From assembly GCA_024398615.1 (NCBI GenBank), contig JAKSIU010000011.1, positions 1-64,000 on the forward strand: a stretch of DNA of 64,000 nucleotides, written 5' to 3'. This document shows, in pieces, positions 46,408 through 64,000 of this stretch. A program made the translations under genes and the position numbers. Positions within the stretch are counted from its first letter, which is position 1; the number at the start of each line of letters is the position of its first letter. The notes beneath the pieces are model-generated. The model was not told where the DNA came from and did no database searches. It worked only from the letters and a program-made list of their open reading frames with translations. Source of the stretch: Bacteroidaceae bacterium. GTDB taxonomy: Bacteria; Bacteroidota; Bacteroidia; Bacteroidales; Bacteroidaceae.

Positions 46408-47553
46408 TTATACAGTCTGTACGCACGGACAGGCAATGGGATTGCAGTAGATACCCAGGAAAATGTCTCTGAGAGCGTCCATATCATCTGTCCCGAATCC
46501 CGACAATCCATCGAGACGGGCCTTGAACGCGGCGGCCTGATCTGCGGAATATTCGGCATTGTACCTTGATGTCCCATACCTCATGTCGTATGCGATGTAC
46601 GCATTGGGGAACAGATGGTATCCGCCGCAGATGCGCCTGTCAATGAGTTCCGCGACACAACGGTGGAACCTGACGTCCGGAACCTGGCCGAAAGCCTCAA
46701 GGTCAGCGGCTGTAACGGGATCACATATCTGGAAATGCAGCCGTCCCTTGTCCTGGGTAATACCTGTCAATATGCTGTTCAGGTCCTCGCCCGGCTTCTT
46801 CACATACTGTCCATTTCTTGCGGTCTCATACAGTTCACGCGCTTTCAGCATATCGCACGGCTCCCATTCGTACGATACTGACACCGGCACTATGTTCAAC
46901 TCGGCAAGCCTGCTCACCCTGTCGCCGCTGCCGCTCATTGAGAACATCTTGATTATGCCCTGAGCCGTACGGTCAATACCATCCTTGGTCCGGCCGTTAC
47001 GCTGTGCAATCCAAACCGACTGTTTCCTTTCGGTCAGGACATATCGGATGTATTCAGACAGATGAATGCTGCTGTTATACATCTCTCGGGGACTGCCGGC
47101 ACGCTCTACACGGAACATCTTGTTGCTCTTGCCTATATCAATGAGCAGCTGGCCCTGCATAAGATTGGAGCCGAATGTAATTTCGCCCGAATCCAGCCCG
47201 TAACACTTATAAAGAGAGGACATGAGAAGGCATGAATCCAAAACGATGTCACGGTGATTGCTCACGAACAGATACTGTTTTGAAGTGTCCAGTTTCTCTG
47301 CTCCTCCGATTGTCAGCCCGGCAGTCGTGCAGTCAATGATACGCTGGCTGGCTGCTGCCATGACATGATACTGGAAATCATAAACGCTTTTGAACGAGCA
47401 GACGAGTTCATGCACTTCATCCACCGTCCGCTCTGGAAAAATGAAACTCGCCAGCATTGGGAATGACCGATGCCCGGCAATACGCCTCATGGCAGCCGGT
47501 ATCTCAGCATCACGGTACGGACGTATGTCATCGAATCTGGATTCGTCAGTCAT
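46408..47553 (-). CDS. PlsC-like glycerolipid acyltransferase, last gene of the lipid operon
   Basis: 381 aa. FVSNHRDIVLDSCLL (about 97-110) is the acyltransferase box in a variant form in which the Asp is one residue further than in NH-x4-D. VERAGSPREM and VWIAQRNGRTKDG are the later blocks of glycerol-3-phosphate acyltransferases. It probably moves an acyl chain to a glycerolipid or to the pathway's product. Overlaps the AMP-ligase gene by 4 bp, which puts it in the same transcript. An AT-rich inverted repeat (ACATTTTTT/AAAAAATGT, about 46361-46394) just past its stop may act as a weak terminator. Confidence 0.82.
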   Translation of the reverse strand: MTDESRFDDIRPYRDAEIPAAMRRIAGHRSFPMLASFIFPERTVDEVHELVCSFKSVYDFQYHVMAAASQRIIDCTTAGLTIGGAEKLDTSKQYLFVSNHRDIVLDSCLLMSSLYKCYGLDSGEITFGSNLMQGQLLIDIGKSNKMFRVERAGSPREMYNSSIHLSEYIRYVLTERKQSVWIAQRNGRTKDGIDRTAQGIIKMFSMSGSGDRVSRLAELNIVPVSVSYEWEPCDMLKARELYETARNGQYVKKPGEDLNSILTGITQDKGRLHFQICDPVTAADLEAFGQVPDVRFHRCVAELIDRRICGGYHLFPNAYIAYDMRYGTSRYNAEYSADQAAAFKARLDGLSGFGTDDMDALRDIFLGIYCNPIACPCVQTV

Positions 47554-48845
47554 CGGCGCTCATCTATGAATTTGACCGGTTTGCGGCCTGTCGGAGGAAA
47601 ATTGACCTTCCTTATATCATCCGCCGGACATATCTCGATTTCAGGAGCCACACGGATACGCGAACGGAAGCTGTCCTTGAGTTCCTTCACAACGTCAAAA
47701 TCCTGTTCCGTCTTCAGCCCCACCTTTACCAGGACATCATCGGTCCCGGCGGCACTGTTGCGGACAATCACCACATAATTCTCAATGTAGTCGGTATTGT
47801 CAAGCACATCGTTTATTGCAGGCGGATAAAGAGTCGTGCCCTTGAGCTTGATCATGTTGTTCTTGCGTCCAAGCAGCGGAGACAGACGGTATGACCAGCG
47901 TCCGCAACGGCACTGCTCCACATGCTTGCAGGCAATGTCACCGGTACGGAACCTGAGCAGAGGCATACCCTCAACACCAAGGGTAGTCACGACCACCTCA
48001 CCGGGCTGACCGTCAGCTACAGGCATTCCGTCATCCCCTATTATCTCGACTATAATCAGTTCCGGATGTACGTGACCGCCCATGCCGTATTCGCATTCGC
48101 TGAACGTAGCCCCCATTTCGGTCGATGAATAAGTGGCGAAAAGTTTCACTTCGGGCCATCTCTCATGAATCTGACGGCCAAGCAGATTGTATTCGAAGTT
48201 CTGGTCGCGCAGTCCCTCACCTATTCCTATTATGCGGCGGATGCTGCTGCCACGGTAATCTATTCCATGTGCCTCAGCATAGTCTATCAGTTTCAGGATG
48301 AACGAAGGAACGCACATTATGGCATCGGGCTGGAAACGGCGTATGGTATCCCACTGCAGTTCCGGTATTCCGTTACCCACGCGTATCACTCCGGCTCCCA
48401 TTTCCCTGAGTCCAAGGAAATACGCCATACCGGCCATGAAACGTTTGTCAAGCGTGGTCATGAGCTGCAGAACGCTTTCCTCACTGAGTCCGGCACAGGT
48501 GAACGACTTCTTCTCATTGTAGGCCAGACGCTGCAGGTCCTTCTCGGTACAGCCGAAAAGAACCGGGTCCCCCATGGTCCCGGATGTGGTTATATAGTCT
48601 ATTATTCTCTTCTTCGGTACACAGCAGAAATCGTCATTGTACAACTGCAGGTCCTTCTTTTCAGTGAATGGGATTCTGGTAAGGTCCTCAAGATGGAGGA
48701 TCTTCTCAGTATTGATGCCGTAGCTCTCGAACATACGGCGATAGTAAGGCGATCTCTCCTTCAGGTATGCCAGATGGTCACGAAGCAGTCCCTCCTGAAA
48801 TTCCTTGATCCGTTCAGGGCTCTCAAACTCAATATCCTTTTCCAT
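47550..48845 (-). CDS. Phenylacetate-CoA-ligase-like AMP-forming enzyme
   Basis: 431 aa, ANL superfamily, PaaK-like. P-loop ITTSGTMGDPVLF, ATYSSTEMG and LLRFRTGDIA, with the C-terminal hinge region LLGRKNNMIKLKGTTLYPP (PaaK signature). In aryl-polyene and flexirubin clusters a ligase of this kind activates an aromatic acid before loading onto ACP; that role is inferred here from position. It could equally activate a fatty acid or act alone. 15 bp after the esterase gene, 4-bp overlap with the acyltransferase gene. Confidence 0.85.
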   Translation of the reverse strand: MEKDIEFESPERIKEFQEGLLRDHLAYLKERSPYYRRMFESYGINTEKILHLEDLTRIPFTEKKDLQLYNDDFCCVPKKRIIDYITTSGTMGDPVLFGCTEKDLQRLAYNEKKSFTCAGLSEESVLQLMTTLDKRFMAGMAYFLGLREMGAGVIRVGNGIPELQWDTIRRFQPDAIMCVPSFILKLIDYAEAHGIDYRGSSIRRIIGIGEGLRDQNFEYNLLGRQIHERWPEVKLFATYSSTEMGATFSECEYGMGGHVHPELIIVEIIGDDGMPVADGQPGEVVVTTLGVEGMPLLRFRTGDIACKHVEQCRCGRWSYRLSPLLGRKNNMIKLKGTTLYPPAINDVLDNTDYIENYVVIVRNSAAGTDDVLVKVGLKTEQDFDVVKELKDSFRSRIRVAPEIEICPADDIRKVNFPPTGRKPVKFIDERR

Positions 48846-48860
48846 CTCTGCAAAAATATG

Positions 48861-49745
48861 TCATTTTATTCCTATTTCGTCAAGCCAGTCAAGAAAAGCG
48901 TATTTCCATTTCCTGGATTCTTCCGAACCGTATCTCTCACTCACTCCGAACCCGTGTCTGCCCTCCTTATACTGAATATACCGGTGGTCAATGCCATGAA
49001 CTGTCAGAGCGCTGTCCAGCAATACCGAATTGTGCCAGTCAACCACAGGGTCATCCTTGCAGTTCACAATGAATACCGGAGGACAGTCATCGGGAATATT
49101 GTCCTCAAGAGACATCATACGGCGCAGTTTCCGACTGCTTTTACCCCACTCTCCCAACAGTCCGCGACGCGAACGCCGATGGACGTATGGCGGTTTCATG
49201 GTCACTACCGGATATATCGAAGCAATGAAATCGGGACGTAGCGACACCGACGCACCGCCCTGCGGCAAACGGGTGAAATCCTGCATGTAGTAGCATCCGG
49301 AACTCATTACCAGATGTCCGCCTGCCGAAAAACCCATGACTCCCAAACGCTCCGGATCAATGCCATATTCATCGGCATTTTCCCTTAACAGTCTGATTGT
49401 TCTCTGCAGATCACAAAGCATGTCGGGATGTCGGTTACCACGTGCCACATAGCGGTAATGCGTGAAATATGCACCGAAACCGGCAGTCCTGTACTGGAGC
49501 AGGAATGCATTGATACCCTGTTCCTGCAGCCATTCCGCGACCTCAATACCCTCGCCCTTCACATCCAGCCAGCAATAGCTGCCGCCCGGACACACTATGA
49601 CCGTAGGGGCATCGGAACCTGCCTCGGTCATGTATGGTGTCAGCATGACTTCACCGGCACGGAAATCCACATCGGCCCATGGTGTCGTGGTCAGACGTGA
49701 AGGCGTAATGGTAAGAAAGGTGAAAAGCAGCAGTGATTCCAGCAT
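48861..49745 (-). CDS. Alpha/beta-hydrolase esterase in the lipid operon
   Basis: 294 aa with a hydrophobic start that may be a signal peptide or anchor. VIVCPGGSYCWLDVKGEG is the oxyanion-hole region of acetyl-esterase-like proteins, GFSAGGHLVM holds the nucleophile, NCKDDPVVDWHNS the Asp and KEGRHGFGVSE the His. It could trim an ester from the pathway product. It overlaps the preceding unknown gene by 1 bp. The substrate is unknown; similar proteins are often called lipase/esterase or xylan esterase. Confidence 0.85.
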   Translation of the reverse strand: MLESLLLFTFLTITPSRLTTTPWADVDFRAGEVMLTPYMTEAGSDAPTVIVCPGGSYCWLDVKGEGIEVAEWLQEQGINAFLLQYRTAGFGAYFTHYRYVARGNRHPDMLCDLQRTIRLLRENADEYGIDPERLGVMGFSAGGHLVMSSGCYYMQDFTRLPQGGASVSLRPDFIASIYPVVTMKPPYVHRRSRRGLLGEWGKSSRKLRRMMSLEDNIPDDCPPVFIVNCKDDPVVDWHNSVLLDSALTVHGIDHRYIQYKEGRHGFGVSERYGSEESRKWKYAFLDWLDEIGIK

Positions 49746-50107
49746 CAGTCTTTCAGCATTCCTTCAATTTCGGTTCTGTCCATCTGGCGGTAACGGTGCT
49801 GGATGTCGGCACTGAAATCCACCTGGAAATACTCCTCGTCGTAGAATGACAGCTTGGAGTTGGTGTCGGGATTGCATTCCACATACGTTATGGAAGCAAT
49901 GTCCAGCCCCTTGGCCTGACATATCTGCTCTGCCAGCTTCTGTCCGGCGTATGTGACTGACGTTCCGGGATTGTCCTGATACAGTTCAGTCACTATCACG
50001 AATATCCTTCCAGCCTTGCGGCGTATCTTCAGTCCGCAGGTCGACGGCATGTCCCATTCGCCCTTGAAACTGAATATCTCATCATAATAATCGGGTGATA
50101 CTCTCAT
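49745..50107 (-). CDS. Unknown 120-aa protein in the lipid operon
   Basis: 120 aa, no signal peptide or membrane segment. It reads as an alternating alpha/beta domain: a strand pair around CGLKIRRKAGRIFVIVTELY, a helix TYAGQKLAEQICQAKG, then ITYVECNP and the acidic YFQVDFSADIQHRYRQMDR. I do not recognise a family. It lies 1 bp after the radical SAM gene and overlaps the esterase gene by 1 bp, so tight coupling is likely. Cofactor-partner roles for the radical SAM enzyme are possible but without direct evidence. Confidence 0.75.
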   Translation of the reverse strand: MRVSPDYYDEIFSFKGEWDMPSTCGLKIRRKAGRIFVIVTELYQDNPGTSVTYAGQKLAEQICQAKGLDIASITYVECNPDTNSKLSFYDEEYFQVDFSADIQHRYRQMDRTEIEGMLKD

Positions 50108-50108
50108 T

Positions 50109-51398
50109 TCAGTTCTTCTTGATGTTTCTTACCACATCCTTGCCGAACGAGCGGTTGGCAAGACGACGGTCACGCGGGCGGTATGTGCCCTCCTTCATTT
50201 CACGCAGGGCCACGTTGCAGAACAGACGGAACATCTTCTGCTCCTGGCTTTCATCGGCATAGAAGCTCTTCCATGCGTACTCGTAGACATCCTGAAGTTC
50301 ATCAGGAGTCATCTTCTTGGGCTGGAACACAACCTGACCGGCATTGTAATGGTTCCAGTCAAAGTCGAATATGCGGCCCTGACGCAGCAGGTCGTCATAG
50401 ACCTTGGTGTGCGGGAACGGGGTCAGCACTGTGAATTCAGCCAGATCGAGGTCAATCTCGCCGAGAAAGTCAATCAGACGCTTGCAGTCATCGACAGTCT
50501 GGTTGTCAAGTCCAAGCAGAATGGTACCCTCGACACCTATTCCATAGTCATGATAACGCTTGACACGCTCCCTGATATAGTCCGATGTGTCATACACGGC
50601 CTGATACACATACCATGCGCCGGCCTTGGCGGCAAGATCAAGCACCTCGGGGTCATCCTCAATGGTGTGGCTTATCCACTTCTTTTTAAGCGGTGCAATG
50701 GCACGGAACAGTTCCTTCTCCCATTCCTTGTTCTGGGCAAGTGAATTGTCCACAATGAACAGGCGGTTGTTCTCAATGCCTGCCATGTCCTCGACCACCT
50801 TGTCGATGGGACGCGGACGGAAGCATCGGCCTCCAAGATACGATACTGCGCAGGGATAGCAGCTGAAACGGCAGCCACGGCTGGCATGGAACAGGTCCAC
50901 CATCTGAACGCCCTTGTGATTGTACAGCTCGCGCTTGTACAGGTCACGGCGGCAGGGACCTACCGACTCAATCGGGGGCAGATTGCCCATGAAGTTGTAC
51001 AGTTTCTTGAGTTCGCCACGGCTCCAGTCAAGCATCACCTGCTCCATGCGTCCCTCGCTCTCGCCCAGAAACACACTGTCCACGTGGTTCACCATCTCCT
51101 CGGCATGAAGCATGGTGGATATGCCTCCGGCAAAGACCAGTTTTCCGCGTTTGTGATACTCGTCGGCAATCTCCCAACCGCGCTTGACCTGGGTCGAAAG
51201 CATCATGGACAGGGCCACGCCGTCACACTCCTCGTCAAAGTCGATGGTATCGACATTCTCGTCACAGAATGACACGTCAACCCATTCAGGAAGGGTCGCA
51301 GCAAAGGCCACCGGTCCGTGAGGTGGCAGATTGAAGGTTGTCTGCCCTTTCAGCTTCTGCCACTTGGGATAAATCAGTTTAAGTTTGAAAGTGTTCAT
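50109..51398 (-). CDS. Radical SAM protein of the B12-binding type
   Basis: 429 aa. The 4Fe-4S motif is C-R-F-S-C-Y-P-C at residues 176-183 (ASRGCRFSCYPCAVSYLGG). The N-terminal ~130 residues look like a B12-binding Rossmann-type domain (FAGGISTMLHAEEM; VDSVFLGESEG), without the H of the DxHxxG motif. LLGLDNQTVDDCKRLIDFL and FTVLTPFPHTKVYDDLLRQG are typical of this branch (HpnP-, BchE-like). Such enzymes methylate or rearrange unreactive carbons. In this cluster it may tailor the polyene or its head group. 7 bp after the oxidoreductase gene. Confidence 0.88.
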   Translation of the reverse strand: MNTFKLKLIYPKWQKLKGQTTFNLPPHGPVAFAATLPEWVDVSFCDENVDTIDFDEECDGVALSMMLSTQVKRGWEIADEYHKRGKLVFAGGISTMLHAEEMVNHVDSVFLGESEGRMEQVMLDWSRGELKKLYNFMGNLPPIESVGPCRRDLYKRELYNHKGVQMVDLFHASRGCRFSCYPCAVSYLGGRCFRPRPIDKVVEDMAGIENNRLFIVDNSLAQNKEWEKELFRAIAPLKKKWISHTIEDDPEVLDLAAKAGAWYVYQAVYDTSDYIRERVKRYHDYGIGVEGTILLGLDNQTVDDCKRLIDFLGEIDLDLAEFTVLTPFPHTKVYDDLLRQGRIFDFDWNHYNAGQVVFQPKKMTPDELQDVYEYAWKSFYADESQEQKMFRLFCNVALREMKEGTYRPRDRRLANRSFGKDVVRNIKKN

Positions 51399-51405: not shown

Positions 51406-52881
51406 TTATTTTGTTTGTATTATATCATTCAGAATCACATCGTTGCCGACAATCGCCTGAGCCGTCTCGATTGCCGTCATCGGGACGCCTCCTATGCCGT
51501 GCATGTTCACGTTCTGGCCAGTCAGCAGCAGATTGCCCACCTTGGTACGTATGGGCACCTGCGACAGCGCCGGACACTCCACATCCTTGGCGTATCCGAA
51601 AGCGCCCGCATGCGGGGCTCCCAGCCAGTCACGGAACGTAAGCGGGCTGGCAGCGAAAATGTCATCGGCCTGTTCCCTGATGTCAGGGAAGCGCTTCTCC
51701 ACCAGATCCATGACACGCTCAGTGCGTTCCTTCTTCCAGCATTCGTATCCGGCACCCCGATGCCCTGTACGTGTATCTGCCCATTGCTCCGTCTCAACGA
51801 AATCCATAAGCGAGAGAACGGTCATGTGCGTAGCCCAGCCGTCACCACCTCCGGCAAGGAAGCAGTTTGCCGTATGCGGCCATACGCCGTCACGCACCCA
51901 CACATTACGGAAACTGTCATTCACGGAAACCGGACAGCCGGGATGTCTCAGGACACCGGGCTTGAGTTTCACGAAGACCTTGAAGGCCGATGCCGTATCG
52001 GGAATCTCCATGAGCCGTCTCGAATACCCGGCATTGAAGGCCTTTCCGTCAATCATGGCAAGCAGTGCCTGCGGGTGAATGTCCGATATGTAATTGTCTG
52101 CAACGTATTCACGTCCATCACCGTCAGTCACCGAACAGACCTTCATGTCGCGCACTGTGACACGCTTCACCTCACGTCTGGTCAGCACCTGTCCCCCGCC
52201 CTGTTCGATGACACGTTGCAGGGCTTCGGCCAGACGGCCTGAACCGGCGCGGAACCAGCACGGACCTTCAATGAACATCTTGGATATCATGACATGCAGA
52301 TAGGCCGGCGAATGCCCCGGCACGCCTGCATAAAGAGGATTCACGAACGCCAGCAGCGCTTCGAGTTCAGGATCAGACACATACTGAGCAATGAACCTGT
52401 CGGCCGCCATCATGAACTCGTCACTATGCGGCTGGAAAATGCCATCTGACGGTTCCAGATAGAACAGTTTCTCCTCATGCGAGAGACGGTCGACAGCATC
52501 CAGATAACGTGCCAGTCCATCCGACTGTTCCGGGAAGCACTGCGACAGATACTCCTGAAAGGCCTTGCGTCCCACCGGAAGGTCAAAAGTACGTCCGGTA
52601 TCGGCGTATGTCACACTGGCCAGCCTGTCAGGGAACTCCAGCTCAAGACTGTCCATAATGCCTAGATACCGGCAGATACGGTTCATGTTCCCGCCGGGAG
52701 CAAAACCTGCCGCAATGTGCATTCCGGTCTCATACACTTCACCGCCGCGCACAAAGTTCTGCAGACCGCCTCCAATGACTGCGTTCTTTTCGAGTACAGT
52801 CACTCTTACGCCCTGCCTTGACAGCAGCGCCCCGGTAAAGAGACCGCCCATTCCTGCACCTATTATCAGCGTATCCGTCAT
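51406..52881 (-). CDS. CrtI-like FAD-dependent oxidoreductase
   Basis: 491 aa. The N-terminal FAD motif is IIGAGMGGLFTGALLSRQGV followed by VLEKN; GGGLQNFVRGG and the C-terminal LLLTGQNVNMHGIGGVPMTA are the phytoene-desaturase/retinol-saturase signature. It would saturate, desaturate or isomerise double bonds of a polyene-like chain. Overlaps the MMPL gene by 4 bp. It is not standard in the aryl-polyene clusters I recall, so it may mark a special product. Confidence 0.87.
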   Translation of the reverse strand: MTDTLIIGAGMGGLFTGALLSRQGVRVTVLEKNAVIGGGLQNFVRGGEVYETGMHIAAGFAPGGNMNRICRYLGIMDSLELEFPDRLASVTYADTGRTFDLPVGRKAFQEYLSQCFPEQSDGLARYLDAVDRLSHEEKLFYLEPSDGIFQPHSDEFMMAADRFIAQYVSDPELEALLAFVNPLYAGVPGHSPAYLHVMISKMFIEGPCWFRAGSGRLAEALQRVIEQGGGQVLTRREVKRVTVRDMKVCSVTDGDGREYVADNYISDIHPQALLAMIDGKAFNAGYSRRLMEIPDTASAFKVFVKLKPGVLRHPGCPVSVNDSFRNVWVRDGVWPHTANCFLAGGGDGWATHMTVLSLMDFVETEQWADTRTGHRGAGYECWKKERTERVMDLVEKRFPDIREQADDIFAASPLTFRDWLGAPHAGAFGYAKDVECPALSQVPIRTKVGNLLLTGQNVNMHGIGGVPMTAIETAQAIVGNDVILNDIIQTK

Positions 52882-55800
52882 TTCTCCAGTTCAAATTCAA
52901 GATTGTCAGGCTTGCCCGAAAGCGAACGCGCCAGACAGAGAGTCTCTTCATCACGAACATATCCCGTTACCCTGGCATCGGGATGAAGCAGTGCCTCAAG
53001 CATGCTCCTCTCGCCCTGTCCGGAATCACTGACGGCAATATGTCCGTCAGCATCGGCACCACACATATCAGCATCCATCAGAACGGCAAGCGTACGGCGG
53101 CAGTTCCTGTAAATCTCAAGTCCCTTGTACATGTACTGGTGCCTTACAAACGGTTTCCAGTATTCCGCATCCTCACACTCGCGGCACATCTGCGCATACC
53201 AGTCAATGTAGAAACGGTGGAATGTCCTGGTACGTTCGCGGGCATCGGTTCCCCAGTTCATATCATCGGCAGCCACGCGCTGTCCCACCCTAACCGTAAT
53301 ATGTCCGGGACGCAGCATCAGTTCAGGCTTCGGCAGGACATGACCCACGCCGTGAAGACATACCGGAACAATGTCCAGTCCCAGCTCATGTGCAATATGG
53401 AAAGCCCCTTTGTGGAAGCGCAGGATGCTGCAATCGGCCGAACGTGTGCCCTCGGGGAATACCACAATCGAGTATCCGCGCTCCACCAGACTGCACAGCT
53501 GTGGCATGTACCGTTCAACACCCTCGGCTGCCGGAATGAACTCGGCACGGCGTATCAGAGCGCCGTATATGGGATTCCTCCATACCCAGTCATTGGTTAT
53601 TACGACCAACTTCGGGTGGAGCATCAGCAGGCACATCAGATCCAGGTGCGACTGATGGTTGCTTATCACTACGGCCGGCTTTTCAAAGGTCTCGCCGACA
53701 CTGTTGTCAAGCGTGAAGCCCACAGCCGGAATACGTCGTATCACCAGATTCGAGAAGCGGTACAGGACCCTGTGAATCCAGCGTTCCTTACGTTCATTCC
53801 CGGGACCGATGAAACGAAGCAGAGCCACCGGAGTGACCACCAGCACGGCAAGAATCAGCACGGCAAAGGCAAGAACCGTACGTGCAAGACGCGCCAGTGT
53901 GACAGGCATGCTGCGCAGCTGTCCCTTCTTCATGGTAAGCCATTTGAACAGCCATTCAGGCAGGAAATGCGCCATGACCACCACGGCGAACATACCCAGT
54001 ATCGTTATCTCGGCCAGAGAACGCATGGCCGGATGTCTGGCTATGACAAGTGTCCCGATACCGATGAACATCAGAATGGCCGACAGTATCACGCTTCTGC
54101 GGCGGTCATCGAGCGTACGTACTCCGTAGGCGTATTCGTGCATCAGGCCCTCAGTAATGAAGATGGTGTAGTCATCGCCCTGGCCGAAAATGAACGTTGC
54201 CAGTATTATGCTCACAATGTTGAACTGTATGCCCAACAGGTTCATGAGACTGAGAATCCATATCCAGCCCACCGTCAGCGGCAGGAACGACAGAAGAGCC
54301 AGTTCCAGACGGCCGAACGATATCCACAGGAACACGAAGACAATGAATCCGCACATGAACAGCACCATGTTGAAATCATCGGACAGCGATTCCACAAGAG
54401 ATGCCATGATCCGGCTCATGCTCTCAGGCTCCAGGTCCTCTCTTGAAATGAGTTCGGGCTGTACTTTCACCGATTCCATGAAACTGTCAAAGGCCGATGC
54501 GGTGAATCCGTATTCCCTGCCCTTGACTGCCAGCTCCGCCACAATGTCGGCGTGAGCGTTCCAGAATTCCAGCCATCGGCCATCCATGGAGGCCTGAGCG
54601 GCAGAATCGGGCAGCAGTCCGGCCAGCACTGACAGACGGTCCATCGAAGCGGCATCCACACCGTCCGACAGCAGCTCAAGATCGGCCTTCTGTGCCTTGG
54701 TCATATAATTGATGTGATTCAGATTGGTGTCAAAGCCGGCCGTTCCACCCCAGATGAGCATGACAGCGGTCACTACAATCACAGCCCTTGAAATCCAACG
54801 GCCAGTCACATTGGTCTTCATGGTGACCCTTTCGCTGCCGTATCCGGCTGACGGCGGACCCTGAGGACGCACCAGTACCGGAAGGAATACCAGAGTGAAC
54901 AGGATAGTGCCCACCAGCATGAAGGACCCGAACAGAGCCAGGTCATGCATGGCCTGGGCCTTCAGGAAAATCAGACACAGAAAGGCACTGACCGTGGTAA
55001 TGTTACCTACCAACAGTGGAGTGACCATTTCCTTCAGTGTACGGCGGTTATCGCCGGTTTCAAGCAGAGAGTGCAGGAAATGAAGCGGGTAATTGGCCGC
55101 AATGCCCACAATAATCGAGCCAAGTCCAATTACGATTATTGAAATGCTGTCCTTGAACAGCCCTATGATTCCAAGCGAGAACACGGCTCCGAACAGAAGC
55201 GTGAACCCAATCCACAGCATGTACCCCACACGCCTGAAAGCGAACCTGAGCACCAGGAAAATGCCCGCTACAGCAAGCAGCACGGCCAGAATGCTGTCTG
55301 TCTTGATGCGTTTCGCGTTGGTCGCGGCAATGAGCGGTGCGCCCACTGCTGAAATGCTGATGTCCGTTCCGTCCGATGCAGCATCGGCCACTTTCCCGAC
55401 CAGGTCCTGCAAATCGGCATTACGCTTCGACTCGCTCTGACCGAACGGGGAATTGAAGAACAGGAAGCCAATGGGCTCAGTGGCATGCAGTATATGTCCG
55501 TCCTCCATACGGTATCCGCCGTTTCCGCCTGCATCGGCCAGTTTCAGCAAGATTGGCGAGAACAGGTTCAGCGGATCATGCGGAATGGTGTTCTGCGTGA
55601 AGCTGCCGGTCATCATCTGCAGCGAACGGCGGTCGGCCTCCAGCTGGCTGTCCACGTATCCCGGCTGTGCCAGCAGTGAATCCATACGGCTGTAATCGGC
55701 CTCTGTCAGGAAACTGGGAAAATGCTCCTGCACGAACCCGACAAGCTCCAGGGCCATGCTCTCATCGGCCACAGCGCTCATGTCTGGAACCATTTCAAGC

Positions 55801-57206: not shown

Positions 57207-57810
57207 AGTCTCCGTTAAGCTGTACGTTACTTATCTCAATGACAGTGCTTCCGCCGCCGGTTTCAATCATGTCTATCCTCTCAAGCAGACCTGTCGATGA
57301 ACTGAAACTCAGTGTGATCTGCTGGAACATCTTCTTCATGTCGCGTCGCACCGGAACCATGGCGGCAACCCAACGGCCGTCGGCATCGGACATGCTCACC
57401 TTGAACATGCGGCTGTCCTTGAGACACTGGCCCGACATGCAGCCCATCATGACACCGGCAATGCCCTGGAACATGCGGCTGCCTTCGCCACCGATCTCGC
57501 TGTGGCTGCCATCCGAATCGACTGTCAGGGTCTCACCATCGGCCCTGAAACTGTATGCAAACGGTTCGGTATAGGCCCACTTGAGACGTGACGGGCTGAA
57601 ATACAGCATATTGCCTTTTGAAATCTGATCACCCTCCATCAGCGGCACACGCTTGGTCTGGGTGAATTCGCACTTCATGGACTTCATGTCCCCGCAGGCA
57701 CGGATAATGGCCTCGATGCGGGCATCGTCACCATTCTGCTGTCCCTGTACGGGAAGCGTTCCCGCAAGGCAGAGGAGTATAGCGGCAAGTATCGTAACGG
57801 TCTTCTTCAT
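57190..57810 (-). CDS. LolA-like periplasmic lipid/lipoprotein carrier
   Basis: 206 aa with a signal peptide (MKKTVTILAAILLCLAG, cut near VQG-QQ). The rest fits the LolA beta-barrel family: MKCEFTQTKRVPLMEGDQISKGNMLYFSPSRLKW is the standard opening. A LolA homologue is a regular member of aryl-polyene clusters and is thought to carry the lipid across the periplasm to the outer membrane. This copy is not the housekeeping LolA, judging by position. 1 bp separates it from the EamA-like gene. Confidence 0.9.
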   Translation of the reverse strand: MKKTVTILAAILLCLAGTLPVQGQQNGDDARIEAIIRACGDMKSMKCEFTQTKRVPLMEGDQISKGNMLYFSPSRLKWAYTEPFAYSFRADGETLTVDSDGSHSEIGGEGSRMFQGIAGVMMGCMSGQCLKDSRMFKVSMSDADGRWVAAMVPVRRDMKKMFQQITLSFSSSTGLLERIDMIETGGGSTVIEISNVQLNGDYAAEW

Positions 57811-57811: not shown

Positions 57812-58165
57812 TCATCGGCTTATGAATGCTGCGCCTACCAGGATAAGCCCTATGCCTATCCATCGGCCCAGCGGTATCTGTTCGCCCAGGAACAGCATGG
57901 CTCCAAGCATGCCGAACACAAAGCTCAGACAGCTCAGGGGATATGCAATACTGAACGGGAAATTCTTGATTATGTACAGCCACAGCACCGTAGCACCTCC
58001 CATGGTCAGGCCGCAGCCCAGCCACCAGAAATTCTGTACTTCCTTTCCCAGAAAACGCCACAGACCATCGTACGCGCTCATGTTGTTCATGGCGAACTTG
58101 AGCATGAGCTGTCCGGCAGCAAGCAGCAGACTCTGCAAAAGGGAAAAAGGTATTATCTTCCACAT
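57812..58165 (-). CDS. Small EamA/SMR-like membrane protein
   Basis: 117 aa from the ATG at 58165 (MWKIIPFSLLQSLLLAAGQL); the longer open frame runs into the ketosynthase-like gene and is less likely. Four membrane helices; FGMLGAMLFLGEQIPLGRWIGIGLILVGAAFI is an EamA/DMT half-transporter signature. It may work as a dimer to move a small substrate or lipid. Overlaps the upstream ketosynthase-like gene by 13 bp. Confidence 0.8.
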   Translation of the reverse strand: MWKIIPFSLLQSLLLAAGQLMLKFAMNNMSAYDGLWRFLGKEVQNFWWLGCGLTMGGATVLWLYIIKNFPFSIAYPLSCLSFVFGMLGAMLFLGEQIPLGRWIGIGLILVGAAFISR

Positions 58166-59142
58166 ATGGCCTTGAGCAGTACAAATGAATAATGACGTCC
58201 GCCCACCACGTTGACAAGCAGAATGCTGTTGCAGGGCACATCGCCCCTGCCGCCGTTCAGGACTGACGGAACATGTCCGGCCTTTAGACTGCATGCCGCA
58301 GCATAGAAGCCTATGGCCGATGACGAGAAGTTGACCCCGAACAGCGGCTTGTAGCTGCACTGAGGCACATCATCTCCAAGAAAATCATACAGGGCATCAT
58401 TCCCGGCATTGCCGCTGCGGCCGGTCATACAGACATCGGCCTTCATCTGCGACAGGACCTGCGACAGTTCCTCATTTGTGGGACGGTTCAGGATTCTGAC
58501 ATCCTCGAGCGTGCACATGGACGGTTTCGTACTGTCAGCCTCAAGCAGGACGGACACGGCCGCCTCGCTGCATGTTTCGCCCTGCATCACGTGTCCGGCC
58601 TTGGTCATGAAACCGGAAAAGACGGGCGACATCTCGTCATGAGCACCCACAAGCGCGTTCCCTATCTTACCCAGACGGAACTGGAGCCAGGCATCGTACA
58701 GGGCACTGTCAAACGAAAGTCCCTTCTGCGAATACGTGGAGTTGTAGCCATGACTCTTTGTGTTTATTCCAATGAGAGACGACGCGGTATTGTGCGTTGA
58801 CTGCATGAACTGCGTGGGTTTGAGCATCTGCTCCCCCTCACGCACCAGGGCATCCAGAAACAGCTCGGTGTTCTCAATGCTTCCGAATCCAGTACCGGTA
58901 ATAATGGCATCGGGATTACGTATTCCACCCTCTTCCAGGGCCGAAAGCGATGTGGCAAGAGCCCGTTTCAGGAGCTTGCCCAGACGGCGTGATTCGCCGG
59001 GTGTCACGAACTGTCGGAAATCCGGGTCCATGGCACGCACGAACTGTCCCGATGGCACGACAGGACTGGTCATCCACTCCTCACAGAGCGGCTGCTGTAT
59101 GGAAACCTGCTTGGCAGATATTATGTCAATTCTCTGATACAT
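58153..59142 (-). CDS. Ketosynthase-like protein without catalytic residues (chain-length-factor type)
   Basis: 329 aa. Ketosynthase fold relative: GTGFGSIENTELFLDALVRE, then QSTHNTASSLIG where other ketosynthases keep their Cys loop. No T-A-C-S-S/A-C-x-S-G motif and no K-x-x-x-GH pair: the C-terminal half has NFSSSAIGFYAAA at that place. It is probably a partner subunit (chain-length-factor-like) for one of the active enzymes. Overlaps the active ketosynthase gene by 17 bp, which favours equimolar synthesis. Confidence 0.82.
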   Translation of the reverse strand: MYQRIDIISAKQVSIQQPLCEEWMTSPVVPSGQFVRAMDPDFRQFVTPGESRRLGKLLKRALATSLSALEEGGIRNPDAIITGTGFGSIENTELFLDALVREGEQMLKPTQFMQSTHNTASSLIGINTKSHGYNSTYSQKGLSFDSALYDAWLQFRLGKIGNALVGAHDEMSPVFSGFMTKAGHVMQGETCSEAAVSVLLEADSTKPSMCTLEDVRILNRPTNEELSQVLSQMKADVCMTGRSGNAGNDALYDFLGDDVPQCSYKPLFGVNFSSSAIGFYAAACSLKAGHVPSVLNGGRGDVPCNSILLVNVVGGRHYSFVLLKAICGR

Positions 59143-60334
59143 TGCTGATTACCAGTGATGAATCATTTCCTCCGAAACCGAACGAATTGCACAGGACATG
59201 TCTGAGCGGTCTATCCGGTTCCAGTTTCATATTAGGTACTACCAGGCCCTCATCGGTATTCTCAAAGGCGTAGTTCACAGGAGTGAATCCGTTCTCGAGA
59301 GCCAGGATGCATATCACGGCTTCAATGGAGCCCGATGCGCTTGTGGTATGTCCGGTCAGCGACTTGGTCGATGACACCGGCGGCATGCAGTCCCCGAACA
59401 CACGTCTCATGGCCTGGCTCTCGCTCAGGTCATTGTTGGGTGTTCCCGTTCCATGGGCGTTGATGTAGTCAATGTCGGCAGGCTCGAGCCCGGCATCGGC
59501 AAGCGCCTTCATCATGGCCAGATAGGCCCCCTCGCCGTCGGGCGACGATGCCGTCTGGTGGAAGGCGTCACACGCATTCCCGTAACCCGACAGCTGTGCA
59601 ATGGGCTTCACACCTCGTCTCAAGGCCGATTCCCGTGACTCGAGCACCACATAAGCGGCACCCTCGCCAAGATTCAGTCCGGCCCTGTCGCGGTCAAACG
59701 GACGGCACTGCCCGTGGTCCAGGATCATAAGCGAATTGAAACCGTTCAGATGGAACTTGGTAATGCACTCGCTTCCTCCGGCCACAACAATATCGGCCTC
59801 ACCGAGACGTATCATGTCGGCTGCCAGCTCGATGGCGTTGGCGGCCGATGAGCATGCCGTCGATATGGTCGTGATGAACCTGAAACGCCCGAAACGGTCG
59901 GCAATCATTTCCGAGCACGAACCGCAGTCATGCGTTCCGATATACTCGTTGCGGCTGTCATTCCCGATGAAATCCAGATAGTACCGCTCGCTTTTGTCCA
60001 TGCCGCCCACCGTTGTTCCGTCCACGAAACCTGTCCGGGGCAGATCGGCAGCGGTAAGGCCCGCCTGGTCAAGTGCCTCACGCATGGCCATCATACCCAT
60101 CAGTGCGGTACGGGTGGTCGGAGTTCCCGGGGCTATGCCCATGGAACTCTCCATTTCGGCATCGGACATCTTGACCTCGCCTACCGGAAATTCGGTATGG
60201 CCGGTCTTAAGGTAGCGGAGCGGCCCCACACCCGTACGTGTGGCCAGCAGCGACTCCAGCACCTGTTTCCTGTCCTGGCCTATGGCGCAGATTATGCCAC
60301 AGCCCGTTATCAGCACTGAATCACGTCCGGCCAT
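59126..60334 (-). CDS. Beta-ketoacyl-ACP synthase, active type (first of two)
   Basis: 402 aa, FabF-like. Catalytic Cys in TISTACSSAANAI; His in INAHGTGTPNND and in KSLTGHTTSASGSIE; NSFGFGGNDSSL closes the fold. All catalytic residues are present. It would extend a growing ACP-bound chain by two carbons in the polyene pathway. 1 bp after the ACP gene, and overlapping its degenerate partner by 17 bp. Confidence 0.94.
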   Translation of the reverse strand: MAGRDSVLITGCGIICAIGQDRKQVLESLLATRTGVGPLRYLKTGHTEFPVGEVKMSDAEMESSMGIAPGTPTTRTALMGMMAMREALDQAGLTAADLPRTGFVDGTTVGGMDKSERYYLDFIGNDSRNEYIGTHDCGSCSEMIADRFGRFRFITTISTACSSAANAIELAADMIRLGEADIVVAGGSECITKFHLNGFNSLMILDHGQCRPFDRDRAGLNLGEGAAYVVLESRESALRRGVKPIAQLSGYGNACDAFHQTASSPDGEGAYLAMMKALADAGLEPADIDYINAHGTGTPNNDLSESQAMRRVFGDCMPPVSSTKSLTGHTTSASGSIEAVICILALENGFTPVNYAFENTDEGLVVPNMKLEPDRPLRHVLCNSFGFGGNDSSLVISNVSEN

Positions 60335-60335: not shown

Positions 60336-60593
60336 TCACTTGGTACGGTTCTTCTGAATGTAGTCGGCCATCACATTGACTGACTTGAATATCTCCTTTC
60401 CCTTGGCAGGATCCTGCAGCTTGATGCCGTAATTCTTCTCCATGAGAACAATCAGCTCCAGTGCATCAATGGAGTCAAGTCCCAGACCTTCGCCGAACAG
60501 AGGTGCATCGTTGTTGATGTCATCGGGCTGCACGTCTTCAAGGTTGAGAACTTCAATAATTTCCTGCTTCAGTTTGAGAATCATTTCTTCCAT
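60336..60593 (-). CDS. Acyl carrier protein (first of two in the cluster)
   Basis: 85 aa. The phosphopantetheine serine is in GEGLGLDSIDALELIVLM. Helical, acidic, typical of dedicated ACPs of aryl-polyene clusters (LEDVQPDDINNDAPLFGEGLG). 6 bp after the ketosynthase-like gene and 1 bp before the active ketosynthase gene. Likely carries the growing chain. Confidence 0.95.
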   Translation of the reverse strand: MEEMILKLKQEIIEVLNLEDVQPDDINNDAPLFGEGLGLDSIDALELIVLMEKNYGIKLQDPAKGKEIFKSVNVMADYIQKNRTK

Positions 60594-60599
60594 AACGGT

Positions 60600-61229
60600 T
60601 CAAATATTTAAATTGTTCATTATTGTCCTTATCCTGTCTTCCAGTCCTTCCAGAGCACCCCTTTCCACAAGGGTGAAGAAAGTCTGGAAATCGTCATTCC
60701 TGCGGCTGTCCACCCATCCCGCCAGAACACTGTCCGTCACATCATCGTCAAAAGCACAGGCTATGTGGAAGGCCATCTGTGCGGCATCGGGCCTCTCAAC
60801 GACATAGAACGATGTCTCGCCACGGAAATGTCCGCGGATGGCAATCTCGCCCGTAACGATGTTCGGCAGAGTATATACGAACAGCGCCGGACTTGGATAA
60901 TAGTTGTCCCTGTCGCTGATCGTCTCCTGATAGTTGGTATCGGCACAGAGCGATGCCGTGGTTCCGAACAGCACCACAGCGCGGTGTGCGGTGAACTCGT
61001 CCTGACCGCAGCGCGTTTCGCCTGTCTCCTTGAACAGCAGTTCGCTGGCCACGAAACCGGCCTTGCTCAAAGTGTCCATCTTGAAGAACTTGGGCCAGTC
61101 GCCTATATGGGCACGGTACAGTTCGGCCAGCATGGCATTGCCGGTCTGCTCATGTTCCAGACTGCGTCCGTTCACTACGGCACGACCGCTGTCAAGTATC
61201 ACGTAACTGAATTCCTTTTCCATCACCAT
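60600..61229 (-). CDS. Short ketosynthase-like protein, no active site
   Basis: 209 aa. FKMDTLSKAGFVASELLF and YYPSPALFVYTLPNIVTGEIAIR resemble part of the ketosynthase fold, with GHFRGETSFYVV next to them, but no catalytic Cys or His motif is present. Similar proteins are annotated as 3-oxoacyl-ACP synthase in Bacteroidota and sit in the same kind of cluster. It is probably a structural partner. Overlaps the second active ketosynthase gene by 7 bp. Confidence 0.78.
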   Translation of the reverse strand: MVMEKEFSYVILDSGRAVVNGRSLEHEQTGNAMLAELYRAHIGDWPKFFKMDTLSKAGFVASELLFKETGETRCGQDEFTAHRAVVLFGTTASLCADTNYQETISDRDNYYPSPALFVYTLPNIVTGEIAIRGHFRGETSFYVVERPDAAQMAFHIACAFDDDVTDSVLAGWVDSRRNDDFQTFFTLVERGALEGLEDRIRTIMNNLNI

Positions 61230-62374
61230 AGGCCGTTAAGTCTGTACAACAGGGCGGCATTGCATCCGCCGAATCCGGACAGCAGCTTTATGAACTGGCG
61301 TCCGTCGGTCCTTCTCAGTTCGGGACTCACACTGACCGGGCACGATGTACCCTGACGTGCAAATCCACGGGTAGCCAGAACCGTATGGTCCTTGACCGCA
61401 TACATGGAAAGGACGCTCTCCATAATGCCGGCGGCACCCATCGTATGTCCGTAATAGCCCTTCAGTCCCGTTACCGGCACATCGCTCAGTCCGGCACGTG
61501 AAAGAGCTATCGATTCCATCTCGTCATTATAGGCCGTCGCCGTGCCGTGCACGTTCACGAAAGCCAGATCATCCGGCGTGCAGAAGCGCAGCATCTCCTT
61601 CAGGGCAAGGTAGCTGCCCTCACCCGTACGCGACGGACCCGAAATATGGTTCGCGTCATTGCGTATTGCGCCTGCCACCAGCTGCCAGCAGCCATCGGGC
61701 ACGCTGTCCGCAGCCTTGAGGACCACGGTAGCGGCACACTCACCCAGATTCAGGCCGCGCCGTTCACTGTCAAACGGCCGGCAGAAGTCATCACTTATGG
61801 CCTTGAATGACAGAAAGCCCGATATGATGAAAGGTGACTGTTCATCGGCCCCCACCACAACTGCGCAGTCATAACGTCCGCTCCTGATGGCACGCATGGC
61901 CTCAATCTGCGCACACACGCCCGAAATGCAGGCGTTGCATACCACCAGCGGGCTGTTGGGATTGCCGAAGTAGTCCGATACCTGACGCGCGGCCACACCA
62001 AGCAGCACACGCTCGCGTGGAAAGTCCTGCGCTTCGCCAAGCAGACTCACGTTGCCCTTGGTGGTCGATACCACGAACAGCACCCGCGGGCTGGAAGCGT
62101 CAATGCCGGCGTTCTCCACTGCCTGTACAGAGCTTGCCAGCAGCATCTTCTCAAAAAACGTATAACGGTCAGTGGGAATACCCAGACTGCGGCAGGCATC
62201 GTCCAGCACTCCACGGTCCATGCGGGACAGAGTGAACGGAGTGCGTACATTACCCATGCTCCCGTAACGTGACAGCCCGCTCTTTCCGGCCTTCACGCTC
62301 TCATAGTTCGCAGCCGAATCAAGTCCGAGCGGCGAAACCACGTTGTCTGCCATGCACTGTATGAGACGTTCCAT
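61223..62374 (-). CDS. Beta-ketoacyl-ACP synthase, active type (second of two)
   Basis: 383 aa. Catalytic Cys in VVCNACISGVCAQI; His in VNVHGTATAYNDEME and in LKGYYGHTMGAAGIME; LSGFGGCNAALL at the end. The CISG loop differs from the CSSA loop of the other enzyme, so the two probably use different substrates, e.g. starter and extension steps. 1 bp after the dehydratase-like gene. Confidence 0.93.
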   Translation of the reverse strand: MERLIQCMADNVVSPLGLDSAANYESVKAGKSGLSRYGSMGNVRTPFTLSRMDRGVLDDACRSLGIPTDRYTFFEKMLLASSVQAVENAGIDASSPRVLFVVSTTKGNVSLLGEAQDFPRERVLLGVAARQVSDYFGNPNSPLVVCNACISGVCAQIEAMRAIRSGRYDCAVVVGADEQSPFIISGFLSFKAISDDFCRPFDSERRGLNLGECAATVVLKAADSVPDGCWQLVAGAIRNDANHISGPSRTGEGSYLALKEMLRFCTPDDLAFVNVHGTATAYNDEMESIALSRAGLSDVPVTGLKGYYGHTMGAAGIMESVLSMYAVKDHTVLATRGFARQGTSCPVSVSPELRRTDGRQFIKLLSGFGGCNAALLYRLNGLW

Positions 62375-62375
62375 A

Positions 62376-62801
62376 TCAGTTCTCCAATGCTATCTTCAAA
62401 TCCGTTTCAGCAATCAGCTCGTCCCCCACATGTACCGTGGCATGGACAAGGGTTATCTGAAACACCTCCTCAATCACTTCAATCCTTGTCGTCAGCACCT
62501 CGCCCACAACAGGTGTGCGCAGAACATTGAAACCGTTCACCGCACCTATGAAACCCAGTTTCACCCTGCCATTCTCTGACAGGCTGATGTATCCCATCCT
62601 TGCCGCACAGGTTTGGGCGATGTTCTCGTTCAGTCCGGCTGTCGAGAAATGACCGTCATCGACAAAGATGTTGTCGGGAGTCACCTCAAGAGTACTCACG
62701 GTCACCACCGGGTCATAGTGGACCAGGCGGTCAATCATGACGAAAGGCCTGCGCTGCGGCAGCAGGTCAAGAACGTTGATGTCTTCAAGCCCAGAAGTCA
62801 T
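62376..62801 (-). CDS. ApeP-like hotdog dehydratase
   Basis: 141 aa. LLPQRRPFVMIDRLVHYDP is the family opening; DDGHFSTAGLNENIAQTCAARMGY is the active-site helix with His and Glu both kept, as in ApeP of aryl-polyene clusters. It would dehydrate the ACP-bound 3-hydroxy intermediate. It overlaps the acyltransferase gene by 17 bp. With the second hotdog protein at 57 kb this gives two dehydratases, as in known aryl-polyene loci. Confidence 0.87.
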   Translation of the reverse strand: MTSGLEDINVLDLLPQRRPFVMIDRLVHYDPVVTVSTLEVTPDNIFVDDGHFSTAGLNENIAQTCAARMGYISLSENGRVKLGFIGAVNGFNVLRTPVVGEVLTTRIEVIEEVFQITLVHATVHVGDELIAETDLKIALEN

Positions 62802-63666
62802 AATAGTTGAACCACTGTGTGGGATACTGTTTCACAATCTCTTCAAGTTCACTTGCAAAGCTCTGTGCCATGGCTGCCATACGGGCTCTCAGCGGCAGGT
62901 CATCATGAGACTCTATGCTGCGCACGAACACCCTGTAGCTGCGGGCGTTCTCACGCATGGCGAACATTGCCAGCATAGGGACATCCTTCTGGACAGCCAG
63001 GGCGAACGGTCCCATGGGGAAACGCGCCTCGGCACCCAGGAAACTGCATTTCAATGCCTTGGGCGAACCAAGCAGACGGTCACCGGTCATGCTCACTATC
63101 TCGCCGCGGTCCAGAGCCGCATTCATGGCGAAGATGTGCGACATGCTGCCATCGACCTCTATGAGTCCTATATTGTGGCTGGCAAGGATACGGCGGCGGA
63201 AATCCTTCATGACCTGGCTTTCGCCGGCAAACAGCAGTCCGTTGATGCGCTTGGCATGCGATGTCAGCCCGTAGCCCACCATCTCGAAACTGCCGGCGTG
63301 CGTACTCAGCTGAACGAATCCGCCCGGTGCCTGCATAAGTTCCAGAAATCGTTCGTTCCCTTCAACGGTATATGAGAAAGTCTTCCCCGCATAAGCCGCA
63401 TACCGGTCTATGATGACCTGTCCGAAACGGAAATGGTTGGCATAGACCTTGCAGAACGACTTCACGGGACCGTAATGGAAACGTTCGCGGAAGAACCGGT
63501 AGATGGCCAGATAGCCCTTATGGCTGAAAAGCATGTAGAAAGGCACTATGAATGCCATGAAACAGTAAATGACCCTGCGGTCAACCACTTTCATGACTGC
63601 CACCAGAGAACGGATCATCCACGGAAGCCCGTCTGTCCGTCCCTTCCACTCACGTTTTTCCGCCAT
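62785..63666 (-). CDS. LpxL/HtrB-like lysophospholipid acyltransferase
   Basis: 293 aa from the ATG at 63666 (MAEKREWKGR), 10 bp after the ACP stop; an upstream ATG at 63705 would overlap the ACP gene and is less likely. A membrane helix near 30-50 is followed by the LpxL pattern: LSTHAGSFEMVGYGL (H-x4-E) and later FPMGPFALAVQKDVPML. It uses acyl-ACP to acylate a lipid acceptor at the inner membrane. Aryl-polyene clusters carry an acyltransferase of this sort. Confidence 0.88.
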   Translation of the reverse strand: MAEKREWKGRTDGLPWMIRSLVAVMKVVDRRVIYCFMAFIVPFYMLFSHKGYLAIYRFFRERFHYGPVKSFCKVYANHFRFGQVIIDRYAAYAGKTFSYTVEGNERFLELMQAPGGFVQLSTHAGSFEMVGYGLTSHAKRINGLLFAGESQVMKDFRRRILASHNIGLIEVDGSMSHIFAMNAALDRGEIVSMTGDRLLGSPKALKCSFLGAEARFPMGPFALAVQKDVPMLAMFAMRENARSYRVFVRSIESHDDLPLRARMAAMAQSFASELEEIVKQYPTQWFNYYDFWA

Positions 63667-63676
63667 ATCTGCCGTA

Positions 63677-63919
63677 TTATCCCAGTTTTGCCTGCAGATA
63701 GTCACAGAATGCGCTGAATGTCTTTATTCCGGACATCTCCTCGCTCTTGATTCTCACTCCGAAAGTCTGCTCGACTATCACCACGATATCGACAAAATCC
63801 AGACTGTCTATGCCCAGATCCTGCTTGAGCAGTGCTTCAGGTGCAATCTTCTCTTCATCAATCTCAAGGTCCTCAATCATGAAATTGCGGACTTTAGCTT
63901 CAATTTCGCTTCTTTCCAT
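63677..63919 (-). CDS. Acyl carrier protein (second of two in the cluster)
   Basis: 80 aa. Phosphopantetheine site at KQDLGIDSLDFVDIVVIV. The sequence differs from the first ACP (DLGIDSLD versus GLGLDSID), suggesting division of work, e.g. starter unit versus chain. It starts 9 bp after the partial gene at the right edge. Confidence 0.95.
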   Translation of the reverse strand: MERSEIEAKVRNFMIEDLEIDEEKIAPEALLKQDLGIDSLDFVDIVVIVEQTFGVRIKSEEMSGIKTFSAFCDYLQAKLG

Positions 63920-63928
63920 ATTGTGATT

Positions 63929-64000
63929 CTATTCTTTAGTGCAAACCATAATGCTGTGACCACCCTGGCCCATGATGTCGAAGATCCTCTCCACCTTCAT
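63929..64000 (-). CDS. C-terminal end of a gene continuing past the right edge
   Basis: The minus strand is open from the edge to a TAG at 63931-63929, 9 bp before the ACP start. The last 23 residues include FDIMGQGGHSIMVCTKE. Ends of this kind are seen in SAM-dependent methyltransferases, which do occur in aryl-polyene loci, but the fragment is too short to be sure. The tight spacing puts it in the same operon. Confidence 0.6.
   Translation of the reverse strand: MKVERIFDIMGQGGHSIMVCTKE

Follow-up and report, generated by a model that had tools for sequence, protein, structure and literature searches.

The window analysed here, 64,000 nucleotides of a Bacteroidaceae bacterium (assembly GCA_024398615.1; bases 1-64000 of the 71,795-base contig JAKSIU010000011.1, in a genome of 2.46 Mb that is 82% complete), ends in a long minus-strand operon which, judged by the families of its proteins, is an aryl-polyene operon of the flexirubin type. 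We consider it probable that its product is an aryl polyene that lacks the dialkylresorcinol half of a flexirubin and is exported to the outer membrane, and that the operon carries a dedicated tailoring module of two genes. One encodes a radical S-adenosylmethionine (SAM) protein of the B12-binding type (rSAM), the other a 120-aa protein of no known family (p120). Most of the operon represents known chemistry, and the new part is apparently the rSAM + p120 module.

An aryl-polyene operon, probably without a dialkylresorcinol half

Two proteins, FlxY (47550-48845) and LolA2 (57190-57810), passed the curated cut-offs of flexirubin-named NCBIfam families, bearing out the preliminary description of this DNA as an operon for an aryl-polyene/flexirubin-type lipid. 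The ketosynthase/chain-length-factor pair, acyl carrier proteins, FabG and dehydratases for polyene assembly were all present, the second dehydratase (62376-62801) being recognized only through FabZ matches below cut-off. Together with the methyltransferase, the LpxL-type acyltransferase, the MMPL-acyltransferase fusion and the GT2 glycosyltransferase, the FabF-type proteins, chain-length-factor-like protein, carrier proteins, dehydratases and FabG fit polyene assembly, attachment and export. FlxY of Chitinophaga pinensis is a CoA ligase whose catalytic activity on 4-coumarate is 121-fold above that on cinnamate (PMC3992019, in the portion of the text available). Since that enzyme is a characterized 4-coumarate-CoA ligase, the operon's FlxY is expected to supply the starter. 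The same gene had initially been read as an additional tailoring gene for a PaaK-like ligase, an assignment that we therefore abandon.

The dialkylresorcinol half that had also been proposed was not supported. No match to DarA, DarB or DarH was found at the locus, to which the search for DarB was confined, and a darA-like gene was found in 0/9 genomes of the genus with a Tannerella darA-like protein as query. This query has no NCBIfam match and in Pfam only a flavodoxin match below cut-off; it lies directly before a DarB-like gene, and by this position we take it to be DarA. Since no darA-like gene was found in the nine genus genomes with a query so named, a complete flexirubin, combining polyene and dialkylresorcinol, appears unlikely as the product; an aryl polyene attached to a different anchor is probable instead.

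Linkage of rSAM and p120

p120 was found in 24/295 genomes of the order, the window's included. Of the 23 other genomes with a match, 19 loci were opened, and rSAM lay inside the 1.5-kb flank of p120 in all of them; among the 24, G432 was not opened and G433 was represented only by its small locus (G and L numbers are our labels for genomes and loci). Other cluster genes adjoined the pair in 21/21 order genomes fetched over wider stretches.

A scan of GTDB species genomes gave at least 474 confirmed relatives. The best 80 were read and, since these were chosen by rSAM similarity, their uniform context is partly due to that choice. p120 followed rSAM at a distance of -6 to 427 bp in 75/80 loci; the other five were one contig end and four Tannerella genomes. 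The MMPL gene of the cluster was present in 60/67 and a CrtI-like gene in 59/67 loci with 8 kb upstream, while FlxY was present in 54/68, and FlxY or an alternative AMP ligase in 57/68, with 5 kb downstream. The pair also stayed together at shifted cluster positions, following the dehydratase in L199, L209, L214 and L218. By record title, the best 80 loci belonged to Bacteroidales or other Bacteroidota, except L208, a metagenome-assembled genome (MAG) titled Clostridiales; the name Bacteroidales for the order is taken here from these titles. The closest by rSAM among them (99%) was L146, a Bacteroidaceae MAG from horse faeces, the window's own record perhaps not being in the list. At L208:10001-11278 the pair lies inside an ordinary Bacteroidales-like cluster, pointing to a mislabelled MAG or a transfer; since the cluster resembles the others, the title may be wrong.

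In the four Tannerella genomes p120 was unlinked from rSAM and lay elsewhere in the genome, between an ammonia-lyase gene and flxY in three; in the fourth it adjoined PlsC and flxY at the start of a contig. The polyene exporter is encoded in these genomes as well, the match being weaker or truncated in the fourth. At Tannerella L242:6265-10705 the order was ammonia-lyase, p120, flxY, PlsC, on a different contig from the polyene exporter and from rSAM, so that the pathway is divided among several loci. Genome-wide profile searches on 22 chosen genomes matched rSAM and p120 in the same six and missed both in the same 16. As these genomes were picked from loci already seen, the informative part is the unlinked p120 of the four Tannerella and its absence from the 16. 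Linkage, co-occurrence where linkage is broken, and the starter and polyene genes nearby together speak for joint action of rSAM and p120 in the pathway.

Across the phylum, 296 genomes were sampled, and outside the order the pair was almost absent. Among the matches listed, p120 was found only in the window's own genome (the genomes listed being three family members, then other orders), and rSAM only in that genome and weakly in one other (235 versus 879 bits). Radical SAM enzymes usually work without oxygen and the Bacteroidales are largely anaerobes; by this general knowledge of oxygen relations, finding the pair in Bacteroidales and scarcely in other sampled orders is consistent with a radical enzyme sensitive to oxygen.

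Conservation of the two proteins

The motif CxxxCxxC (C176, C180, C183) was invariant in 18/18 aligned rSAM relatives, whose mean column identity was 79%. All 18 matched both PF02310 (B12-binding) and PF04055 (Radical_SAM) at E<=0.01, the best PF02310 match reaching 1.1e-9. This domain order, B12-binding then radical SAM, is shared with HpnJ, BchE, HpnR, TIGR04013 and AprD4, with weak NCBIfam matches; rSAM differs in scoring far below the cut-offs and in sitting in polyene clusters with a 120-aa partner. Its best score against the HpnJ, BchE, HpnR and TIGR04013 families, none of whose cut-offs it reached, was 52.6 of 251 bits. The only solved chain matching rSAM at E<=0.01 was AprD4 (6fd2, E 1.4e-5), the match covering the radical SAM part. 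A 211-aa protein encoded further along the contig (70993-71628; L002:8993-9628) has both B12-binding domains of corrinoid methyltransferase subunits (PF02310 103.2 bits, PF02607 75.7 bits), and the organism therefore probably uses B12.

Compared with G110, G250, G333, G421, G326 and G366, rSAM had 77-89% identity, the highest value among the operon proteins found in each genome, although only the distal genes were in reach in G366 and in G326 the margin over fabG was narrow (rSAM 79%, fabG 78% over a 121-residue fragment). p120 had no Pfam or NCBIfam match at E<=0.001 and no PDB relative at E<=1; Pfam matches of its relatives were weak one-offs to nine families, each by 1/18 members. In the 58 loci with all four proteins within length limits, median pairwise identity was 87% for rSAM, 78% for FlxY, 71% for p120 and 51% for the esterase. 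The four distance matrices correlated (Spearman 0.76-0.87, reached by 0/999 permutations). Since shared species history would also give such a correlation, we claim neither transfer nor coupling. Horizontal transfer of the pair had been considered for the 86% rSAM identity to G110 and is not claimed, rSAM being uniformly slow.

In the literature searched there was no co-mention of radical SAM with flexirubin, nor of radical SAM with aryl polyene and cobalamin. Co-mentions of aryl polyene and radical SAM do exist; those looked into were unrelated uses, as far as the accessible text of these sources goes. rSAM and p120 thus constitute a very conserved and apparently undescribed two-gene module.

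Distal genes across the family

The preliminary description had placed six distal genes (rSAM, p120, the CrtI-like oxidoreductase, the esterase, the ligase and the PlsC-like acyltransferase) in the operon's pathway, as makers of a modified and possibly undescribed product. That they belong to the pathway was supported. Family loci numbered 26 with the window's, of which G053, G072 and G137 were dropped (FlxY and LolA2 matches both below cut-off; loci distant or without most of the cluster), leaving 23 clusters. G050 and G088, which fail the LolA2 cut-off and pass that of FlxY, were kept; G090 and G106, short stretches below cut-off, are outside the count. Four of the 23 (G066, G088, G114, G122) were incomplete at contig ends or broken, and absences there are therefore weak.

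A CrtI-like gene was present in 20 clusters, PlsC in 18, FlxY in 14, another AMP ligase in 7, the esterase in 13, rSAM in 7 and p120 in 7. A single module of six genes was rejected on these counts, which differ gene by gene: the distal genes do not travel jointly, and treating PlsC and the CrtI-like gene, common as they are in the family, as extras was an over-reading. rSAM and p120 always occurred together, the holders being 6/9 genus genomes and G110; the genus genomes without them were G050 and G088, with a diverged cluster, and G070, with no FlxY or LolA2 match over cut-off. Of the distal genes, it is this pair that is accessory and for which the searches made gave no earlier description. 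Family clusters without FlxY end with a different AMP-dependent ligase (L084:12474-13787; in L072 after the MMPL gene), two starter-activation systems thus replacing each other within the family.

Operon layout and gene content

The 20 minus-strand open reading frames from 46408 to the window edge comprise 19 complete genes and an edge-cut methyltransferase gene (Table 1). No gap between them exceeds 15 bp, the widest being from FlxY to the esterase, in agreement with the first account; its ten overlaps were recovered with a TTG start for GT2 (56835) and became nine with the ATG start (56829). The start of the 117-aa transporter gene is an internal ATG within a longer open reading frame. Reading frames were called by a simple script, and the counts that matter were repeated with tblastn. 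Beyond the window the operon continues to fabG, giving 23 genes over contig positions 46408-67592, and its sole gap above 15 bp measures 43 bp, between the 188-aa gene and fabG.

Downstream, 199 bp separate the last operon gene from purF. Before purF, at 46279-46243 on the minus strand, stands a terminator-like hairpin with a 16-pair stem and a T-run, the longest of 16 such sites, a number barely above expectation (shuffle mean 13.7, standard deviation 3.7). Promoter-like sites of the sigma-70 type on both strands numbered 23, against 13.5 (standard deviation 3.9) in shuffles. They count against a single transcript and internal promoters are possible, but they carry little weight since this consensus is not the one known for Bacteroidales. 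A transcript break at 52.9 kb would have no intergenic space, since the CrtI-like and MMPL genes overlap there by 4 bp. In our judgement, tight packing and the gene order kept in relatives exceed chance.

Table 1. Genes of the operon, from its last gene to fabG. Coordinates are window positions unless marked as contig positions.
Feature	Coordinates	Strand	Evidence
PlsC-like acyltransferase, last operon gene	46408..47553	-	Pfam PF01553 at its cut-off (23 bits)
FlxY, 4-coumarate-CoA ligase type starter activator	47550..48845	-	NCBIfam NF053551 683.7 bits, cut-off 520
Alpha/beta esterase, BD-FAE type, probably exported	48861..49745	-	Pfam PF20434 71.2 bits, cut-off 26.8
120-aa protein (p120), no known family, proposed rSAM partner	49745..50107	-	no Pfam/NCBIfam match at E<=0.001
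B12-binding-type radical SAM protein (rSAM)	50109..51398	-	CxxxCxxC; PF02310 + PF04055 in relatives
CrtI/CrtD-like FAD oxidoreductase	51406..52881	-	Pfam PF01593 98 bits; TIGR02733 110.6 bits, below its cut-off
MMPL/RND-type exporter fused to acyltransferase	52878..56102	-	PF01553 at residues 807-916; TIGR00921 78.1 bits, below cut-off
GT2 glycosyltransferase, polyprenyl-phosphate sugar transferase type	56107..56829	-	PF00535 82.4 bits; TIGR04182, NF058614 below cut-off
Hotdog dehydratase, FabA/FabZ-like	56832..57206	-	PF07977 24.2 bits, cut-off 23
LolA2-type periplasmic carrier	57190..57810	-	NCBIfam NF053544 LolA2_flexi 160.9 bits, cut-off 125
117-aa EamA/ArnE-like membrane protein	57812..58165	-	PF00892 35.6 bits, cut-off 28.2; NF011625 53.4 bits, below cut-off
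Chain-length-factor-like ketosynthase without active-site Cys	58153..59142	-	PF13723 37.2 bits; Cys motif searched, none found
FabF-type ketosynthase	59126..60334	-	PF00109/PF02801; C-H-H motifs
Acyl carrier protein 2	60336..60593	-	NF006617 88 bits, cut-off 70
209-aa protein, separated C-terminal domain of ketosynthase b	60600..61229	-	similarity to fused relatives
Ketosynthase b	61223..62374	-	PF00109/PF02801
FabZ-like dehydratase	62376..62801	-	NF000582 41.1 bits, below cut-off; no Pfam match
LpxL-type acyltransferase	62785..63705	-	PF03279 47.9 bits, cut-off 22.3
Acyl carrier protein 1	63677..63919	-	PF00550 47.6 bits
O-methyltransferase-type enzyme, edge-cut	63929..64000 (whole: contig 63929-65032)	-	PF21212 117.8, PF00891 39.3 bits, over cut-off
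FabF-type ketosynthase	contig 65029-66264	-	PF00109 118.3 bits, over cut-off
188-aa protein without Pfam match	contig 66254-66820	-	
fabG	contig 66864-67592	-	PF13561 201 bits, over cut-off

Several core genes differ in form between relatives. In several of them a single fused protein takes the place of ketosynthase b and the adjoining 209-aa protein (window 60600-62374; L071:15718-17418; L083:14851-16581), and in 5/5 relatives tested the 209-aa protein shared 33-49% identity with the C-terminal regions of such fusions, which measure 566-596 aa. Nine long FabF-type proteins contained a relative of the chain-length-factor-like protein, full-length in two (G110, 749 aa; G250, 736 aa) and half in seven of 577-594 aa (window 58153-60334; L083:16906-19155). 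Five genus relatives have a 138-145-aa thioesterase-like gene, for which a relative's YbgC/MenI matches were weak, between the dehydratase and ketosynthase b; it is missing in the window, leaving a 1-bp gap at 62374-62376. The 117-aa EamA/ArnE-like protein, beside a GT2 of the polyprenyl-phosphate-sugar type, would suggest a flipped sugar. Elsewhere in the window, four tRNA genes (Gly, Leu, Leu, Gly) form a minus-strand cluster at 11378-11764.

Proposed pathway and alternatives

From gene content, gene order, the family membership of FlxY and LolA2, and the linkage and co-occurrence of the pair, we infer the following route. FlxY would activate a hydroxycinnamate-type acid, on which the FabF/chain-length-factor pair, two further ketosynthases, FabG and two dehydratases would build the polyene on two carrier proteins. 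The methyltransferase may decorate it, and LpxL, PlsC and the acyltransferase of the MMPL protein would attach it to lipid, the product moving outwards to the outer membrane through MMPL and LolA2. rSAM and p120 are proposed to act as a two-component module making one oxygen-independent change to starter, polyene or head group. rSAM most likely uses cobalamin and SAM, for C-methylation or another C-H functionalization, with p120 as a partner handling substrate or carrier. C-methylation is our first guess because it is a common reaction of B12-type radical SAM enzymes.

Several points weigh against this proposal. Because the pair occurs alongside either starter ligase, and both where an ammonia-lyase is present and where it is absent, it points to no single substrate. 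Cobalamin binding by rSAM is deduced from sequence, and the window's own rSAM scored below the Pfam gathering scores (21.9 and 23.6 bits). The pair is missing from 16/23 family clusters, which presumably work without it, and some clusters are cut by contig ends. The absence of the pair from these 16 clusters, together with the described counterparts that exist for FlxY, LolA2 and the genes of polyene assembly and export, would also suit an ordinary aryl-polyene operon in which distal genes only vary attachment and remodelling and the pair is a minor, dispensable tailoring device with no new chemistry. We regard this as unlikely: in six genomes rSAM surpasses the other operon proteins found there in conservation, and the pair turns up across many families of a single order, which is not what would be expected of a dispensable addition. 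A further difficulty comes from Tannerella L219 and L220, where rSAM precedes darA-, darB-, darG- and darH-like genes, away from p120 and the polyene exporter; L224 has darG and darH only, and L225 had no dar gene in the 9 kb examined. At L219 DarH was over cut-off, DarB reached 542.9 of 550 bits and passed the StlD/DarB subfamily cut-off, and DarG passed its subfamily cut-off only. darG- and darH-like genes also occurred in the fetched stretches of G196, G246, G249, G305, G346, G348 and G430. That the pair acts on the dialkylresorcinol instead of the polyene nevertheless seems improbable, as six of the nine genus genomes without a darA-like gene have the pair; DarB was sought at the locus only.

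The remaining alternatives concern the origin of the starter. No aromatic ammonia-lyase (PF00221; FlxA) was found in the window's genome or in any of the nine genus genomes, whose completeness is 90% or more in seven, 89% in one and 82% in the window's own; PF00221 was present in only 3/14 family genomes with FlxY over cut-off (G003, G032, G037). Since the genus appears to do without this enzyme, plant p-coumarate, freed by the BD-FAE-like esterase or taken up free, can be proposed as the FlxY substrate, in a manner compatible with the pathway above. The esterase passes its family cut-off and many homologues have signal-peptide-like leaders (40 inspected by eye), the window's own leader being weak; the nearest named genomes come, by record title, mostly from rumen and herbivore faeces. 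However, the esterase is present beside an in-cluster lyase in G250 and G333 and absent from the lyase-free G050, G088 and G326, it may deacylate something else, and other coumarate routes were not sought, so that a dietary starter is possible though rather doubtful. Esterase and lyase presence gave no clean pattern, and a tie between them was not established. A second BD-FAE-type esterase is encoded upstream of the operon (contig 69932-70942; L002:7932-8942; PF20434 55.2 bits), 33% identical to the operon's and with a glycine-rich C-terminal tail. The six genus genomes with the pair and no lyase match could also mean that rSAM and p120 replace tyrosine ammonia-lyase as the source of the aryl starter. 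This was rejected as highly improbable: at least five order genomes (G246, G250, G333, G346, G430) have both the pair and an in-cluster lyase, the lyase adjoins p120 in three Tannerella genomes, and G005 and G150 have FlxY with neither pair nor lyase.

Relation to known systems and significance

The operon resembles the flexirubin clusters of C. pinensis (flxA-flxY) and Flavobacterium johnsoniae in FlxY, LolA2, ketosynthases, reductase, dehydratases, acyltransferase, glycosyltransferase and exporter (PMC3992019 and PMC11885536, as far as the accessible parts show). It differs from them in having neither the ammonia-lyase FlxA nor a darA-like gene, and in the added rSAM + p120 pair and BD-FAE-like esterase, neither of which is named in the available part of PMC3992019. 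Its EamA/ArnE-like gene occupies the place where the same neighbours flank a polysaccharide deacetylase in G032 and G037 (L042:458-1126), as if the two had been swapped. With the aryl polyene cluster of E. coli CFT073 (apeA-R) it shares type II fatty-acid-synthase-like assembly, a LolA-like chaperone and an RND-family exporter. The predicted starter of that cluster is 4-hydroxybenzoate, with ApeH, whereas here FlxY has 4-coumarate as its expected substrate, and no radical SAM gene is named for it in the sections available (PMC8253772). The esterase falls in the Pfam family of the BD-FAE feruloyl/acetyl xylan esterase; the published enzyme was found via polysaccharide utilization loci (PMC8165983, accessible part), whereas this one lies inside a pigment operon.

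A bolder and more tentative reading, which we regard as possible rather than probable, is that anaerobic Bacteroidales have a private aryl-polyene step. In it a B12-dependent radical SAM enzyme with a partner of a new family would introduce a modification not yet described and absent from other lineages of the phylum as sampled, the window's genus also building its pigment on plant p-coumarate. A highly conserved rSAM tied to a small protein of no known family indicates where the chemistry can be expected to depart from that in aerobic producers of flexirubin; named carriers of the pair in which to look for it include Tannerella forsythia and Caecibacteroides pullorum (L195). If plant coumarate is indeed the source of the starter, the outer-membrane lipid of a herbivore-gut bacterium would be supplied directly by diet.

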